Positions 31,274 to 58,582 of a stretch of DNA of 64,000 bases are shown here, piece after piece. The DNA lies in assembly GCA_017465575.1 (NCBI GenBank), contig JAFTVX010000033.1, positions 1-64,000 of the forward strand. The letters run 5' to 3'. Positions within the stretch are counted from its first letter, which is position 1. The number at the start of each line of letters is the position of its first letter. The notes under the pieces are model-generated. The model worked only from the letters and a program-made list of their open reading frames with translations, had not been told where the DNA came from and did not search any database. The position numbers and the translations under genes were made by a program. Source of the stretch: Alistipes sp. (GTDB taxonomy: Bacteria; Bacteroidota; Bacteroidia; Bacteroidales; Rikenellaceae).

Positions 31274-31800
31274 CGTTAGTCGAGGCCATTGTCCTCGATG
31301 TTGATGGCGTGATGACCGATGGTGGCATTATCCCCACCCCCGATGGCGACTTTATCCGTCGCTACGATGCCAAAGATGGCTATGCCATAGCCTCGGCACT
31401 CCGCGAGGGCCTCAAGGTATTCGTTATCTCGGGTGGCCGTGGTCGTATGTTGGAGAACCGCCTCACGATGCTCGGCGTAACACGCATGTATCTCAACTGC
31501 ATGGATAAGGTGGCGACAATCAACGAGATAATCGCCGAGTACGACCTGCGCCCCGAGCAACTTCTCTATATGGGTGATGATATCCCCGACCTTGAATGTA
31601 TGCGCATTGTGGGTGTCCCCGTATGCCCTGCCGATGCCGTGATGGAGGTTATCGAGGCCTCACGCTATGTATCCGAGTTTAATGGTGGCCATGGCGCAGT
31701 AAGAGATATCGTCGAGCAGGTGATGCGAGCCAAGGGTATATGGGCGAGAAATCTAAAAGGCGTCCTTGGCCTTTCTTGTGAAATTTCTTGTGATAAGTAG
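31249..31800 (+). CDS. kdsC: KdsC-like HAD phosphatase
   Basis: 183 aa. Catalytic DVDGVMTDGG, motif II VISGG and motif IV GDDIPDLECM mark the KDO-8-phosphate phosphatase group of HAD enzymes, which makes KDO for lipid A-core. No other KDO gene is adjacent, so a related sugar phosphate is possible. The start overlaps the fusion gene. The C-terminus runs into the outer arm of a palindromic element, so the last residues (SCDK) and the TAG stop are encoded by the element; the C-terminus is therefore likely altered relative to relatives. Confidence 0.82.
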   Translation: MGNFKEDIALVEAIVLDVDGVMTDGGIIPTPDGDFIRRYDAKDGYAIASALREGLKVFVISGGRGRMLENRLTMLGVTRMYLNCMDKVATINEIIAEYDLRPEQLLYMGDDIPDLECMRIVGVPVCPADAVMEVIEASRYVSEFNGGHGAVRDIVEQVMRAKGIWARNLKGVLGLSCEISCDK

Positions 31801-31910
31801 CATCCTTCGGCCCATCCCCAAAATGCCGTCAATGAGCAGTACGCCCAAGTACAGCCCATCGACGGCATTTTTGCGATAGACCAAATTATGCTACTTCTGA
31901 CAAGAAATTA
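31782..31910. repeat. Type I nested palindrome, copy at the kdsC stop
   Basis: 129 bp. Outer arms AATTTCTTGTGATAAG plus TAGCAT (31782-31803), paired with ATGCTA plus CTTCTGACAAGAAATT (31888-31909). Inner arms AAATGCCGTC (31821-31830) and GACGGCATTT (31861-31870), loop with GTACGCCCAAGTAC. Compare the copy at 51948-52074: frame and loop conserved, stem blocks different but still pairing. Confidence 0.85.
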
Positions 31911-31912
31911 GG

Positions 31913-32040
31913 CTCTTTGCCGTGAAAAGCCGCAATCTGCGGCACCAAACTTAACTCCCCGAATGGGAAATACGCCAAGTATGTCCCATCCGAGGAGTTT
32001 TCATTTGGCACCACATCTCACGACTTTTGACGACAAAGAG
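31913..32040. repeat. Type II nested palindrome, copy 1
   Basis: 128 bp. Outermost arms CTCTTTG (31913-31919) and CAAAGAG (32034-32040). Frame arms GTGAAAAGCCGCAATCTGCG... and ...CATCTCACGACTTTTGAC. Inner arms AACTCC (31953-31958) and GGAGTT (31994-31999) around AATGGGAAATACGCCAAG and TATGTCCCAT. It directly follows a type I copy. A second copy is at 55908-56034. Confidence 0.85.
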
Positions 32041-32243
32041 TGCTGGCTGGGAGGTGGTCGGTTGCGCTCCGTTGGAGCGCCTGCTAAAGCAGAGGGGTCT
32101 GAGTGGTCTAAGGGGTCTGAGTGGTTGCGCTTGTTTCAAGCGCTGGCTACGCCTCCCCCCTTGGAACCCTTTTACCCCTTTTGTCCCTTGGGGCTATTGC
32201 CCGCAGGCGTTCCGCCTGCAATCTCTTTGCTCTTTGCTCATTC

Positions 32244-32350
32244 TAATAACTAACAACTAATAACTAAAAACTCTCCTGACAATGGGTTACAATGTTTTTT
32301 CAGCGGAAGTGTCTAATAACTAACAACTAATAACTAAAAACTAACAACTC
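32244..32350. repeat. Dispersed AT-rich intergenic repeat, copy 2
   Basis: TAATAACTAACAACTAATAA-type runs on both sides of a core GGGTTACAATGTTTTTTCAGCGGAA, the same organisation as at 13723-13843 and 59421-59541. Confidence 0.75.
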
Positions 32351-32360
32351 TCAAAAACAC

Positions 32361-51764: not shown

Positions 51765-51947
51765 AGAGAGAAGTTGTTAGTTGTTAGTTTTTAGTTGTTA
51801 GATGGGCGCAGTCGATAGAGAATTTAGGGAAATTAGGGAATTTAGAGAATTTAAGGAGAGCGCTACCGACATTTATCCCTAAGCTCCTTACACTCCTTAA
51901 GCTCACTAAACTCCCTAATAAACTTCCTTCCAGCCAGCACCCCTCCT
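51765..51947. repeat. Intergenic repeats between aspS and rsmH
   Basis: An inverted copy of the dispersed AT-rich repeat (GTTGTTAGTTTTTAGTTGTT, about 51775-51800) is followed by purine-rich 9-11 bp tandem units of the AATTTAGGGA type (about 51820-51860) and a partly complementary pyrimidine block CTCCTTACACTCCTTAAGCT (about 51880-51920). CCAGCCAGCAC follows. No gene. Confidence 0.65.
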
Positions 51948-52074
51948 AATTTCTTGTCAGAAGGGGTCTAATTTGGTCTCGACACGAAGAAGCCCGGATG
52001 GGACATACTAAGCGTATTTCCCATTCGGGCTTCTGACTGAGAGGCCGAAGTAGACCCCTTATCACAAGAAATTA
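51948..52074. repeat. Type I nested palindrome, copy at the aspS stop
   Basis: 127 bp. Outer arms AATTTCTTGTCAGAAG plus GGGTCTA (from 51948), paired with TAGACCC plus CTTATCACAAGAAATT (to 52073). Inner arms GAAGCCCGGATGGGA and TCCCATTCGGGCTTC around CATACTAAGCGTATT. The aspS stop codon (52072-52074) is the end of the outer arm. Same frame as 31782-31910 in reverse orientation, with other paired stem blocks. Confidence 0.85.
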
Positions 52075-53829
52075 CTCGGGCTTAACCAACGAGAGGTAAA
52101 GCTCATCAAGCTGTGCCTGTGCTACGGGCGAAGGACCATCGAGCATCACATCGCGACCCGCGTTGTTCTTGGGGAATGCGATGTAGTCGCGGATAGAGTC
52201 CGAGCCACCAAACAACGAGCAGAGACGGTCGAAGCCGAAGGCGAGACCACCGTGAGGAGGTGCGCCATACTTGAAGGCGTTCATCAAGAAGCCAAACTGC
52301 TCCTCTGCTGCCTCGGGTGTAAAGCCCAGAGCATTAAATACTTTTGCCTGAAGCTCGGCATCGTGAATACGGATTGAGCCACCGCCAATCTCGGTGCCGT
52401 TACATACGAAGTCGTAGGCGTTAGCACGCATCTTGCCAAGCTCGCCTGAGTCGAAGTACTTGGCATCCTCGGGCTTGGGTGAGGTGAAGGGGTGGTGCAT
52501 AGCGTAGAAGCGCTGTGTCTCCTCGTCCCACTCGAACATCGGGAAGTCGACAACCCAGAGGGGTGCGAACTTCTTGGGGTCACGAAGACCAAGGCGCTCG
52601 GCAACCTCCAAGCGGAGTGTGCAGAGCTGTGTGAGGGTCTTGAACTTTTCGCCACAGAGGATGAAAATCATATCGCCATTCTTGGCGCCTACACGCTCGG
52701 CAATAGCCTTCAAATCCTCTGCCGAGAAGAACTTGTCGATAGATGACTTGATGTTGCCCTCGGCATCCACACGGATCCAAACAAGACCCTTGGCACCCAC
52801 CTGAGGACGCTTTACGAACTCGGTGAGCTCGTCAATCTGCTTACGGGTGTACGAAGCGCAACCCTCGGCAGCGAAACCTACGATATAGTCTGCTGAGTCG
52901 AAGACCACAAAGTCGTGGCCGTGAGCAAGGTCGGTAATGTCGCTAAATGCCATACCGAAGCGCAAGTCGGGCTTATCCGAGCCATACTTCTCCATAGCCT
53001 CAATCCAAGGCATTCTGCGGAAAGGCTCCGAGTACTCGATGTCCATAACCTCCTTGAACATGTAGCGTGCCCAGCGCTCGAAGATTTCGAGTACATCCTC
53101 CTGCTCTACGAACGACATCTCGCAGTCAATCTGTGTGAACTCGGGCTGACGGTCGGCACGAAGGTCCTCATCGCGGAAGCAACGCACAATCTGGAAGTAG
53201 CGGTCGTAGCCCGCAACCATAAGGAGCTGCTTCAAAGTCTGGGGCGACTGGGGGAGTGCGTAGAACTGGTTGGGGTTCATTCGCGAGGGCACGATAAAGT
53301 CACGCGCACCCTCGGGTGTAGACTTGATGAGATAGGGTGTTTCAATCTCCAAGAAGCCCTCTTTATCAAGGAATTGGCGCACTGCCTGTGCCATACGATG
53401 GCGCAAAATCATAGCGCGCTGCAAGGGTGGACGACGAAGGTCCAAATAGCGATATTTCATACGCAAGTCGTCGCCACCATCCGACTCCTCCTCGATAGTG
53501 AAGGGAGGGGTTACGGCACGGTTCAAAATGCGAAGCTCGGTAGCCGAAATCTCGATGTCGCCAGTGGCGATTTTTGAGTTCTTCGACGAGCGCTCGATAA
53601 CCTTGCCCGTTACCTGAAGAACAAACTCGCGACCTACCTCTGCGGCAGCCGCCTTAACGGCCTCTGACGAGTGCTCCTCGACGGTAATCTGGGTGATGCC
53701 GTAGCGGTCACGAAGGTCGATAAATGCCATCGCACCGAGGTTACGCACCTTCTGTACCCAGCCTGCAAGAGTCACGGTCTGGCCTACATTCTCTATGCGG
53801 AGTTCACCGCAATTATGTGTTCTGTACAT
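52072..53829 (-). CDS. aspS: Aspartyl-tRNA synthetase
   Basis: 585 aa from the ATG at 53829 ([10 protein letters not shown]); the more distal in-frame ATG at 53886 would add 19 untypical residues and would overlap the promoter box. Class II synthetase: N-terminal OB anticodon domain ([26 protein letters not shown]), motif 2 with [18 protein letters not shown], the bacterial GAD insertion in the middle and motif 3 GLAFGFDRL. The terminal codons merge into a palindromic element. Confidence 0.96.
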
Positions 53830-55507: not shown

Positions 55508-55652
55508 AGTTTTTAGTTCTTAGTTTTTTAGTTGTTAGATTAAGACGATAGGACAAGTAAGACGATAGGATGATAAGAAAAATCCTAATGGTCTTATGGT
55601 CTTAATGGTCTTATCGTCTTATAATTCTTCTCCTTCCAGCCAGCACTCAGCC
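55508..55652. repeat. AT-rich repeat fragment and AAGACGATA repeat
   Basis: A short copy of the dispersed TTAGTTTTTTAGTTGTTAGA repeat is followed by TTAAGACGATAGGACAAGTA and AAGACGATAGGATGATAAG (55540-55580) and their approximate complement GGTCTTATGGTCTTAATGG... at 55589-55622, so the block can fold. A related TTAAGACGATAAGACAAGTA is at about 600-620. Confidence 0.6.
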
Positions 55653-55971
55653 AATTTCTTGATAGAAGGGGTCTAATTTGGTGCCGATAAAGAGAAAGAG
55701 CGGATGGGACATTCCGGGGTGTAATTTAATGTCAAAAGTCGTGAGATGTGGTGCCAAACGAAAGAGCCCCAGATGGGACATACTAATTAATGAGCAATGA
55801 GCAATTAGAAATTAGCAATGATTTGTTTCAGAGTTGTAATTTCTTGATAGAAGGGGTCTAATTTGGCGCCGATAAAGAAAAAGCCCGGATAGAACATTAC
55901 GGGGTGTAATTTAATGTCAAAAGTCGTGAGATGTGGTGCCAAACGAAAGAGCCCCAGATGGGACATACTAA
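55653..55971. repeat. Direct duplication of a type I/type II palindrome composite
   Basis: Two near-identical units of about 133 bp, 55653-55785 and 55838-55971, each hold the left half of a type I element (AATTTCTTGATAGAAGGGGT...) followed by the left half of a type II element (...GTCAAAAGTCGTGAGATGTG...). They are separated by a 52-bp stretch containing TTAATGAGCAATGAGCAATT-like sequence. The second unit runs on into the full type II copy. Confidence 0.8.
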
Positions 55972-56034
55972 GGCGTATTTCCCATTTGGGGCTCTAAGTT
56001 TGGTGCCACAGATTGCGGCTTTTCACATTAAATT
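55908..56034. repeat. Type II nested palindrome, copy at the nrdJ stop
   Basis: 127 bp. Outermost arms AATTTAATGT (55908-55917) and ACATTAAATT (56025-56034), which replace the CTCTTTG pair of the copy at 31913. Inner arms GAGCCCCAGATGGGA and TCCCATTTGGGGCTC around CATACTAAGGCGTATT. The outer arm overlaps the nrdJ stop codon (56033-56035). Confidence 0.85.
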
Positions 56035-58582
56035 AACCGCATTTTGAGTAGCCGCACGACATACAAGTCAAACAACCGTTCTGGTATGCCATCTGCTCCT
56101 GACCACACTGCGGACAGCGACCCTTGCCACGAGTACCATCCTTGATGTACTGCTTCAAGGCGCGCTCCACACCATTCTTCCAGGTGTTGATAGTCTCCGA
56201 GTCGAGGTGAAGACCATCTACAAGCTGCACTACCTTGTCGATAGGCATGCCGTAGCGCAATACACCCGAGATAAGCTTAGCGTAGTTCCAGAACTCCTCG
56301 TCGAAGAGTCGTGAGATACCGCCGATGGTGTTGATATAGCCGTAGCGGTCCTGATACTGGAAGTCGTAGCGCTTGGTGCCATCCTTCTCGCATACCTTGA
56401 GGATGTTACCGTGGGTGATGGTCTTGGGGATATACATAGCATCCTCCTCGATCTTACCGGTGAAGATCTCGTAGGGGCGGTCATCCTGCTTACCTACAAA
56501 GGCAATCCAATCCTCCTTGCCGTTCTTGAAGCGCACGATGTCGGCGGGGATAGACTCGGGACGACGGATTGTCTGGTTGTCCTCGCACTTCTTCTTGGCG
56601 TTGCCCTTCGACTTAACATCGAGCAATACGCCGTCGCGGCAGCCGTCACGATATACTGTGATACCCTTACAGCCCGACTCCCACGCTGTGCGGTATACAT
56701 CTGCTACAAGCTCCTCGCTCACCTCGTTGGGAAGGTTCACGGTAACCGAGATTGAGTGGTCTACCCACTTCTGGATAGCGCCCTGCATCTTGACCTTTGC
56801 CACCCAGTCGATGTCGTTGGCGGTAGCCTTGTGGTAGGGCGATGCCTTGAGCATCTCGTCGAGCTCCTGCTCCGAGATTGTCTGGAGGCGTGATGTGTCG
56901 TAGCCGTTGATCTCTGCCCACTTCACAAACTGGTGGTGGTATACATAGTACTCGATGAACTTCTCGCCTGTCTCGTCTACGAATGATGCCACCTGGTCCT
57001 TGTCCGAGGGGTTAATCTTACGACGACGCTTGTATACGGGGCGGAATACGGGCTCAATACCCGATGTTGTCTGCGACATTAGCGATGTTGTGCCTGTGGG
57101 GGCAATGGTGAGCATCGCGATGTTACGACGACCATACTGCTGCATAAGCTCGCGGAGCTCGGGTGCAGCCTCGAGGATACGACCAATCATGGGGTTGCCC
57201 TGCTCCTTCTCGAAGTTGAATACGCCGAAGGCGCCACGATCCTTTGCCATCATAACTGATGCACGATAAGCCTCTACTGCGAGGGTCTTGTGTACCTCTA
57301 CGGCAAAGTCGATAGCCTCCTCCGAGCCGTAGCGCATACCGAGTGCTGCGAGCATATCGCCCTCGGCGGTGATACCCAAGCCGGTACGACGACCCTTGAG
57401 TGCCATATCCTTAATCTTCTTCCAGAGTTCGAGCTCTACACGACGAACATCCTGGTCCTCGGGATCGCCCTCAATCTTCGAGATGATAAGGTCTACCTTC
57501 TCCAGCTCGAGGTCGATGATATCGTCCATAAGGTGCATAGCCTTTGCGATATGCTCCTTGAAGAGGCCGAAGTTGAACTTTGCCTCCTTGGTGAAGGGGT
57601 TCTCTACATAGCTCAAAAGGTTGAGCGCCAAGAGGCGGCAGCTGTCGTAGGGGCACAACGGAATCTCACCACAGGGGTTGGTAGATACGGTGCGGAAGCC
57701 CTCGTCGGCGTAGCAGTCGGGCACACTCTCACGAATGATTGTATCCCAGAACAATACGCCGGGCTCTGCCGACTTCCAAGCGTTGTGGATAATCTTGTCC
57801 CAAAGCTTCTTGGCATCGATATCCTGCTTTACGATGGGATCCTTCGAACCGATGGGGAACTCCTGACGGTAGGTGCGACCCTCAGCGGCAGCGCGCATAA
57901 ACTCGTCGTCAATCTTGATTGATACATTTGCGCCTGTTACCTTGCCGGTGTCTACCTTGGCGTCAATGAAGCGCTCGGCATCGGGGTGCTTGATAAGCAA
58001 CGAGAGCATCAAAGCGCCACGACGACCATCCTGTGCAACCTCGCGTGTAGAGTTAGAGTAGCGCTCCATAAAGGGCACGATACCCGTAGAGGTGAGTGCC
58101 GAGTTGAGTACGGGGCTACCTGTGGGGCGGATGTGCGAGAGGTCGTGACCTACACCACCACGGCGCTTCATAAGCTGCACCTGCTCCTCGTCCATACGGA
58201 AGATACCACCGTAAGAGTCTGCGGGGTTCTTGTGGCCGATAACGAAGCAGTTAGAGAGTGATGCCACCTGAAGGTTGTTGCCGATACCTGTCATAGGGCC
58301 ACCCTGGGGAATGACATAGCGGAAGTGGTCGAGAAGGTCGAAGATCTCCTCATAGCTCAGAGGGTTGGGGTAGTTGCGCTCGATGCGCTGCAACTCCGAT
58401 GCGATACGGTTGTGCATATCGTGGGGAGTGGTCTCGTAGATGTTGCCAAACGAGTCCTTGAGAGCATATTTGCTCACCCACACCTGTGCTGCAAGGTCAT
58501 CGTCCTTGAAGTACTCCTTCGAGGCTGCCACAGCATCGTCATACTTCACCGTCTGAAGCTGCTTTGATGTAGTCTCTTTCAT
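56033..58582 (-). CDS. nrdJ: Adenosylcobalamin-dependent ribonucleotide reductase (class II)
   Basis: 849 aa. Class II enzymes make deoxyribonucleotides by a B12 radical and need no oxygen. The barrel shows NNLQVASLSNCFV, MKRRGGVGHDLSHIRP, STNPCGEIPL (active-site Cys), APTGTTSLMSQTTSGIEPVF, and the C-terminus carries a Zn ribbon RCPQCGQEQMAYQNGCLTC. No NrdA/B or NrdD gene is nearby. The last codons and stop lie in a type II palindromic element. Confidence 0.93.
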   Translation of the reverse strand: MKETTSKQLQTVKYDDAVAASKEYFKDDDLAAQVWVSKYALKDSFGNIYETTPHDMHNRIASELQRIERNYPNPLSYEEIFDLLDHFRYVIPQGGPMTGIGNNLQVASLSNCFVIGHKNPADSYGGIFRMDEEQVQLMKRRGGVGHDLSHIRPTGSPVLNSALTSTGIVPFMERYSNSTREVAQDGRRGALMLSLLIKHPDAERFIDAKVDTGKVTGANVSIKIDDEFMRAAAEGRTYRQEFPIGSKDPIVKQDIDAKKLWDKIIHNAWKSAEPGVLFWDTIIRESVPDCYADEGFRTVSTNPCGEIPLCPYDSCRLLALNLLSYVENPFTKEAKFNFGLFKEHIAKAMHLMDDIIDLELEKVDLIISKIEGDPEDQDVRRVELELWKKIKDMALKGRRTGLGITAEGDMLAALGMRYGSEEAIDFAVEVHKTLAVEAYRASVMMAKDRGAFGVFNFEKEQGNPMIGRILEAAPELRELMQQYGRRNIAMLTIAPTGTTSLMSQTTSGIEPVFRPVYKRRRKINPSDKDQVASFVDETGEKFIEYYVYHHQFVKWAEINGYDTSRLQTISEQELDEMLKASPYHKATANDIDWVAKVKMQGAIQKWVDHSISVTVNLPNEVSEELVADVYRTAWESGCKGITVYRDGCRDGVLLDVKSKGNAKKKCEDNQTIRRPESIPADIVRFKNGKEDWIAFVGKQDDRPYEIFTGKIEEDAMYIPKTITHGNILKVCEKDGTKRYDFQYQDRYGYINTIGGISRLFDEEFWNYAKLISGVLRYGMPIDKVVQLVDGLHLDSETINTWKNGVERALKQYIKDGTRGKGRCPQCGQEQMAYQNGCLTCMSCGYSKCG

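Follow-up and report, generated by a model that had tools for sequence, protein, structure and literature searches.

The tandem palindromes at the end of a kdsC-like gene are members of a large family of palindromic elements that is real, shows strong covariation, holds a definite position, likely functions in termination and falls outside the families tested. It is probable, in our judgement, that the family consists of non-autonomous, dispersed palindromes that dock at stop codons and carry the transcription terminator of the gene whose end they occupy. We infer that the element terminates transcription, that it moves and that its outer arms serve this movement.

The window, that is, the whole 64,000-nt stretch of DNA that was analysed, is contained in a 1.95-Mb MAG of 47 contigs that is 94% complete (own genome, G000). 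Searches with a covariance model (CM R1) derived from 30 copies in that genome, Pfam matches and sequence reading gave the following features:

31780-31911, plus strand: element 1 (type I of the preliminary description), CM R1 128.3 bits, at the end of a kdsC-like HAD gene (HAD Pfam match)
31820-31872, plus strand: inner hairpin AAAATGCCGTC...GACGGCATTTTT plus T-tract, predicted intrinsic terminator inside element 1 (sequence reading; family-wide scan)
31912-32041, plus strand: element 2 (type II), head to tail with element 1, CM R1 110.2 bits
31953-32006, plus strand: inner hairpin AACTCC...GGAGTT plus TTTTCATTT tract, predicted terminator inside element 2 (sequence reading)
32040-32054, plus strand: right-flank piece GTGCTGGCTGGGAGG, variants of which come after many own-genome copies
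51946-52075, minus strand: element at the aspS stop codon, TAA 52074-52072 lying within the outer arm (CM R1; tRNA-synt_2 and GAD Pfam matches)
51984-52033, minus strand: inner hairpin plus TTCTTCGT tract (weak T-tract), predicted aspS terminator, dG -22.7 (L339)
55651-55897, minus strand: three right-half element fragments (55651-55725, 55722-55785 and 55837-55897), within a 185-bp direct repeat
55906-56036, minus strand: element at the stop codon (TAA 56035-56033) of a ribonucleotide reductase (RNR) gene (CM R1; Ribonuc_red_lgC Pfam match)
55943-55993 (ends approximate), minus strand: inner hairpin plus TCTTTCGT tract, predicted RNR terminator, dG -25.3 (L105)

Both elements of the tandem pair reported after kdsC were present as claimed, and the second copies reported at 51948 and 55908 proved to be full copies on the minus strand. 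The location at the gene end was also correct, except that the element begins at or overlaps the stop codon and is not merely downstream of it: the kdsC-like HAD ORF extends 18 nt into element 1 and stops at TAG 31798-31800. Each of the two elements forms a single long nested hairpin (RNA z-scores of -8.9 and -5.9; equalled by 0 of 200 shuffles). As to a coding role, type II was seen by eye to have a stop codon in the frame that continues past the host stop. Other repeats were also observed in the window. The two units of the 185-bp direct repeat (55653-55786 and 55838-55971) are 95% alike and include the right halves of elements. Degenerate repeats of 7-9 nt units (e.g. CTAACAACTAATAACTAAAAACT) lie at 32243-32352, 51772-51950 and 55508-55630, and some short-unit repeats are built as a G/A-rich arm, a short centre and a C/T-rich arm. 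Several module types of such repeats come after elements and differ among orthologs. A 5S rRNA gene occupies positions 25-137.

The element, which measures about 127-135 bp, was found with CM R1 at no fewer than 149 distinct places of the own genome (all 150 scored of 691 first-look candidates matched, one place on both strands), a copy number that may be an undercount, since contigs C12, C20 and C42 have type II copies at or close to their ends and the family may thus break assemblies. Of 200 genomes sampled within the taxonomic family, 72 gave matches, and these fall in 3 of 22 genera (17 candidates per genome scored, under stricter filters); among genomes with completeness of 90% or more and contamination of 5% or less, 38 of 109 matched. 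When the exact core pattern was scanned over assembled genome contigs, at least 106 stretches matched. Among the matches listed, the 80 named ones all come from MAGs of Alistipes sp., uncultured Alistipes or Rikenellaceae bacterium, and the sample names of these MAGs mostly indicate ruminant gut. The element is not universal in the taxonomic family: two genomes, G087 and G022, have no R1 matches and few anchored hairpins in the sampled stretches (7 of 86 gene ends against 1 in shuffles, and 7 of 55 against 4), and those printed look unrelated by eye. A further core type (TCATTTACGATT..AGTAAACTCCGC) was observed in similarly laid-out palindromes outside the scored copies, at L152:12960 and L147:11558 of the closest relative seen (G130). 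In addition, six loci (L272, L275, L276, L279, L280 and L294) hold diverged CM-matched hairpins of another layout, which are not at the ends of long ORFs and sit between GAGGAGCAAG-like or similar outer repeats.

The preliminary description does not mention the anchoring at stop codons, the predicted terminator inside the element or the turnover of types. It knew of no described family with these sequences, and this stands within the searches made. No Rfam family matched 31700-32120 at E<=1, and at the gathering cut-off the whole window yielded 5S rRNA only. One core pattern matched nothing in viral contigs and one copy matched no plasmid or phage, so that carriage by phage, plasmid or viral contig is unsupported by these searches. 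No paper on a matching element was found in the open-access journal literature searched, nor in the available parts of PMC12306157, PMC3116915 and PMC4596501.

To describe the position of the element, we used 272 distinct full copies, deduplicated from 1.39 Mb of loci, 222 of them first in their array and 50 tandem followers. Among the 210 first copies with sufficient upstream sequence, the left end adjoins the end of an ORF on the same strand with 100 codons or more (end within -15 to +22 nt) in 178, with TAA exactly at +1 in 115 of these; 32 have no ORF of this length at the left end. The mirrored control, an opposite-strand ORF ending at the right end, gave 3 of 204, and random positions gave 187 of 4440. 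The right arm carries a base that pairs with the third position of the stop codon (TAA-T in 110 of 122, TAG-C in 5 of 9 and TGA-T in 3 of 4). All 28 adjacent copy pairs of the own genome (gap of at most 40 nt) are on the same strand, mostly separated by a few bases. Among the 24 printed diverged relatives, which come from low-copy genomes of three genera, only 15 have an ORF of at least 100 codons whose end falls at -3 to +13 nt; the arms of these 15 are quite different in sequence, and several of the other 9 have another layout in common.

The stem blocks that had been described as differing on both arms do so: among the 52 pairs of 30 copies from the own genome, 36 show two-sided changes. 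The alignment of these 30 sequences has 86.2% paired cells. Both partners are changed in 269 cells, compared with 98 after shuffling and 26-58 with the partner column slid, the latter control favouring the true register because the pairs were derived from the same sequences. The division into two classes was not upheld, since types I and II are two of many mosaic types with many concentric layers. Two classes were perceived because the nested layers of outer arm, middle stem, inner stem and core are put together differently from copy to copy (92 full copies). Some copies are chimeras by eye, with mismatched arms (e.g. C45:6933, C27:206057 and C18:4016). The outermost 3-nt block was readable in 242 of the 272 copies, being exactly complementary in 180, in 15 versions, and not so in 62. 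Nor are core and loop conserved as had been claimed: the AATGGGAAATACGC/TATGTCCCAT core is missing from the copy at 31782, which has AATGAGCAGTACGC/GTACAGCCCAT instead, and the apical loop is hypervariable, with 0.489 differences per site (from loops of equal length) where the stem has 0.0106, as measured in 178 non-independent pairs whose stems differ at no more than 3 positions. Loops are unlike in 146 of these 178 near-identical pairs. The loop, of 4-6 nt (e.g. 31843-31848 in the window), varies between copies with identical stems.

The inner hairpin followed by a T-tract is likely, from its sequence, to be a sense-strand intrinsic terminator. A scan for a hairpin plus T-tract was positive on the sense strand in 202 of 272 copies, on the antisense strand in 87 and in dinucleotide-shuffled sequences in 22 (one shuffle each), leaving 70 copies negative on the sense strand. 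Among positives, the inner hairpin averaged -23 kcal/mol and the T-tract lay nearly always at positions 80-94. A strict scan that allowed no stem mismatch listed no sense terminator inside either element of 31780-32041. Native terminators are nearly excluded downstream of elements, where they rarely occur: in the own genome and G130, a strict-pattern terminator within 150 nt after the element was found at 0 of 81 occupied gene ends versus 42 of 251 unoccupied ends (Fisher 4e-6), and anywhere before the next gene at 8 of 81 versus 53 of 251. Orthologs were compared with an RNAfold-based scan, at 30 aspS loci of 61 query-matching genomes (some of them distant matches) and 30 RNR loci of 55. At aspS, 8 of 30 loci are occupied, one by a short palindrome; a terminator lies inside in 5 of the 8 and none lies inside in 3, one follows the element in 2 (in L341 another copy comes next), and 18 of 22 element-free loci have a terminator within 150 nt. 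At RNR, 10 of 30 loci are occupied, all 10 with a terminator inside and none with one after, and 13 of 20 element-free loci have one, some of them weak. Three terminators of G130 that stand alone and have the same inner stems as elements come after the stop codons of long ORFs, of 304, 440 and 294 codons (L153:8625, L141:16961 and L143:15491), and a fourth (L136:9788) has no long ORF before it.

Read in the direction of the gene, the element would thus consist of a stop codon (usually its own TAA, then TTT), the outer left arm, the inner hairpin, the T-tract and the outer right arm ending in AAATTRG, after which comes a short genome-specific flank. The RNA is predicted to end about 80-95 nt into the element, within the right arm. 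Because the remainder of that arm would be missing from the terminated mRNA, the outer arms most likely act as DNA, either by providing inverted ends for movement or by forming a palindrome whose match is maintained through inverted copying. Copies would spread inside the genome and replace one another at the same stop codons.

Comparison with G130 bears on this replacement. Of 19 upstream matches, 3 were uninformative, as the flank was itself an element or the match fell short of the gene end. At the 16 informative gene ends, both genomes are occupied at 13 (one copy truncated), a shared occupancy biased upward by the choice of G130 stretches around CM matches, which leaves the mismatch of types unaffected; the occupants are near-identical at just 3 ends, and G130 is empty at 3. 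Sites therefore persist between close species while the type of occupant changes. At the three empty sites, the printed sequence past the stop codon has no match visible by eye and offers no clean occupied/empty junction, so that replacement looks the same as insertion followed by loss. Nine copies (3 from G000, 5 from G130 and 1 from G106) have the same 117 stem nucleotides but five versions of the 4-nt loop. Right flanks resemble one another more closely inside a genome than across genomes (mean best score of 22.5 versus 18.4 for G000 and 27.5 versus 20.9 for G130).

A non-mobile origin is possible, if unlikely: ordinary terminators would have grown into long palindromes and been homogenised, either through ectopic gene conversion or when related DNA is taken up, as with the uptake-sequence terminators of Neisseria and Haemophilus, with new sites arising from recombination that copies gene ends. 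The exchange of types at fixed sites, the swapping of nested layers as blocks (by eye), the occurrence of inner modules as plain terminators and the lack of a transposase of the tested families all agree with such an origin. However, a left end placed precisely on the stop codon (+1 in 115 of 178) without a common coding flank is hard to obtain by homologous exchange, and identical stems in three genomes require recent copying. Unlikely, too, is a bolder form of the preferred reading, in which mobile DNA targets stop codons as such. The element would then be a terminator cassette that moves as a folded single-strand hairpin and displaces the native terminator, its right arm re-made by inverted copying to pair with TAA, TAG or TGA and its loop re-made in each round (loops diverging about 46 times as much as stems in near-identical copies), through an enzyme of a type new to such elements.

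Occupied genes carry a codon signature at their ends. In 145 such genes from G000, G130 and named MAGs, two-way C/T codons ended in C in 147 of 193 cases at codons -2 to -5 and in 40 of 146 at codons -9 to -12; the share was also low at codons -6 and -7 (24 of 81) and not at codon -8 (28 of 50). The signature is thus C-ending at -2 to -5 and T- or G-ending at -6 to -12 except -8 (e.g. window 52075-52110, minus strand); it is seen in all three genome sets, in small numbers, and fades past codon -13. A general cause acting at gene ends is ruled out by three unoccupied controls, namely same-direction genes with a gap below 40 (236 genes), convergent genes (200) and same-direction genes with a gap of at least 200 (102), in which the same codon ranges gave 0.45-0.51 and 0.52-0.54 (Fisher p 7e-12 to 3.5e-5). 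Codon bias is stronger overall in occupied genes, and unoccupied genes of high bias are without the signature. It may reflect a docking preference or later adaptation, the aspS and RNR ortholog sets being small and compared by eye. The signature and an excess of C in mismatches are unexplained by a terminator-cassette model.

The preliminary description had also proposed a selected RNA or DNA fold. The changes on both sides bear out the fold itself; a fold at the RNA level does not follow, as wobble pairs are enriched on neither strand. Among isolated mismatches of the 272 elements, AC/(CT+CC) was 2.23 and GT/(GA+GG) was 2.29 (p=1), inner and outer stems taken separately also gave p=1, and even the inner stem, which is taken to act in RNA, was without wobble enrichment, in few cases (11 G.T). 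Since wobble is not enriched, the palindrome pairing looks to be DNA-level, and Watson-Crick-only pairing is what upkeep at that level would be expected to leave, whether the hairpin is recognised as DNA or one arm is copied in inverted form from the other. At one aspS locus (L345 of G207, 2101-2147), a short perfect palindrome of outer arms only lies at the stop codon, its right arm the exact reverse complement of the left, and the outer arms of G106 at RNR are without the usual mismatches. Both hint at inverted copying; the widely retained mismatches G.G at position 13 and T.C at 15 count against pure copying. The suggestion that the element copies flanking sequence in inverted form accordingly keeps limited support, from the third-base pairing and the L345 palindrome, and by eye no complementarity reaches into the coding sequence. 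Unpaired sense-strand positions of the 272 elements were observed to favour C and avoid G.

These results also bear on a hairpin in the 3'UTR of the sense mRNA that would work at the level of translation, like E. coli REPs near stop codons, an explanation that we regard as improbable. REPs within 15 nt of a stop codon stall ribosomes in E. coli (available part of PMC12306157), and this precedent, the position of the element and the signature in the last ~12 codons would suit it. However, the predicted 3' end leaves out much of the right arm, the sense strand has no G.U enrichment, and in 263 of 272 copies the sense strand folds less stably than the antisense strand.

Still less probable is a REP/REPIN-like element or IS-derived MITE mobilised by a known transposase, despite similarity in size, copy number, palindromy and clustering (available parts of PMC3116915 and PMC4596501). 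The RAYT-type domain Y1_Tnp (PF01797) was found in 0 of 61 genomes of the genus, the own genome included, and in 5 of 14 of the control rings, the genus set consisting of MAGs and assemblies, many incomplete; an IS200/RAYT mobiliser was rejected on this ground. Direct repeats at element ends were no commoner than in shuffles, save single cases of 7 and 12 nt, so that a MITE making target-site duplications (TSDs) was likewise rejected. When full-length queries were compared with the own genome (MAG 94% complete), no long element with the same ends was seen; neither an autonomous copy nor a mobilising enzyme was found. Integron attC sites were set aside because no integron integrase exceeded the TIGR02249 cut-off in the 61 genus genomes; tyrosine recombinases matched this model below the cut-off in all 61 and in all 14 controls. 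Retrotransposition was rejected too, as RVT_1, which occurs in 20 of the 61, is missing from seven element-rich genomes (G000, G130, G150, G176, G177, G179 and G194; incomplete MAGs, each with at least 17 element matches).

It is hardly credible that the element represents an antisense RNA, or a structure of the bottom strand, that ends at the stop codon: the antisense fold is the stronger one in 263 of 272 copies and A.C exceeds G.T among sense mismatches (896 versus 68), but the G.U reading of this excess was dropped, since it concerns C in any mismatch (CT and CC too) in the same proportion as on the G side (2.23 versus 2.29), T-tracts favour the sense strand (202 versus 87), and 31700-32250 has no match to a sigma-70-type promoter, a consensus not specific to Bacteroidota.

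If the preferred reading of a palindrome family that docks at stop codons and carries terminators is true, bacterial transcription terminators could be exchangeable, mobile units that capture gene ends and are positioned at the stop codon to the nucleotide. It would join interspersed palindromes, terminator evolution and codon choice at gene ends, which are usually separate fields, and at least 149 places per genome together with frequent exchange between close species would provide a natural assay, in which strain-level sequencing could track insertion, exchange and palindrome upkeep. The wobble test that separates DNA-level from RNA-level upkeep of palindromes could be reused elsewhere.

Several known systems resemble the element in part. 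Integron attC sites are imperfect palindromes of similar size that lie downstream of ORFs, in the orientation of the ORF, and have variable stems. Unlike them, the Alistipes sites are dispersed, and R-box sequences were not seen by eye. The enterobacterial repeat RU-1, also known as ERIC, is palindromic. The Alistipes element is like ERIC/RU-1 in length (127 bp for RU-1; available part of PMC2759123) and was set apart from it by its anchoring at stop codons and by listed named matches that all come from Alistipes or Rikenellaceae. The BrickBuilt and MITE-like elements of P. gingivalis have TIRs common to resident IS elements (available part of PMC4596501). Like these Porphyromonas gingivalis MITEs, the Alistipes element is non-autonomous, intergenic, bounded by inverted repeats and found in Bacteroidales; unlike them, it has no TSD signal, and no parent IS was seen with full-length queries against the own genome. 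REPs and REPINs are short, multicopy, palindromic, extragenic and clustered, with predicted ssDNA or RNA hairpins (available part of PMC3116915). Like a REPIN, the Alistipes element is a high-copy (at least 149 places) extragenic palindrome predicted to fold, whereas a REPIN is two REPs around a spacer and the Alistipes element is a single 130-bp nested hairpin at stop codons with a predicted terminator. DUS and USS signals measure 10-12 bp, and to our knowledge no exact stop-codon boundary has been described for DUS/USS terminators. In Neisseria and Pasteurellaceae, these repeated sequences double as intrinsic terminators at gene ends (available parts of PMC1852404 and PMC2397512). Like these signals, the Alistipes element is a repeat at gene ends that is predicted to serve as an intrinsic terminator; unlike them, it measures 130 bp.
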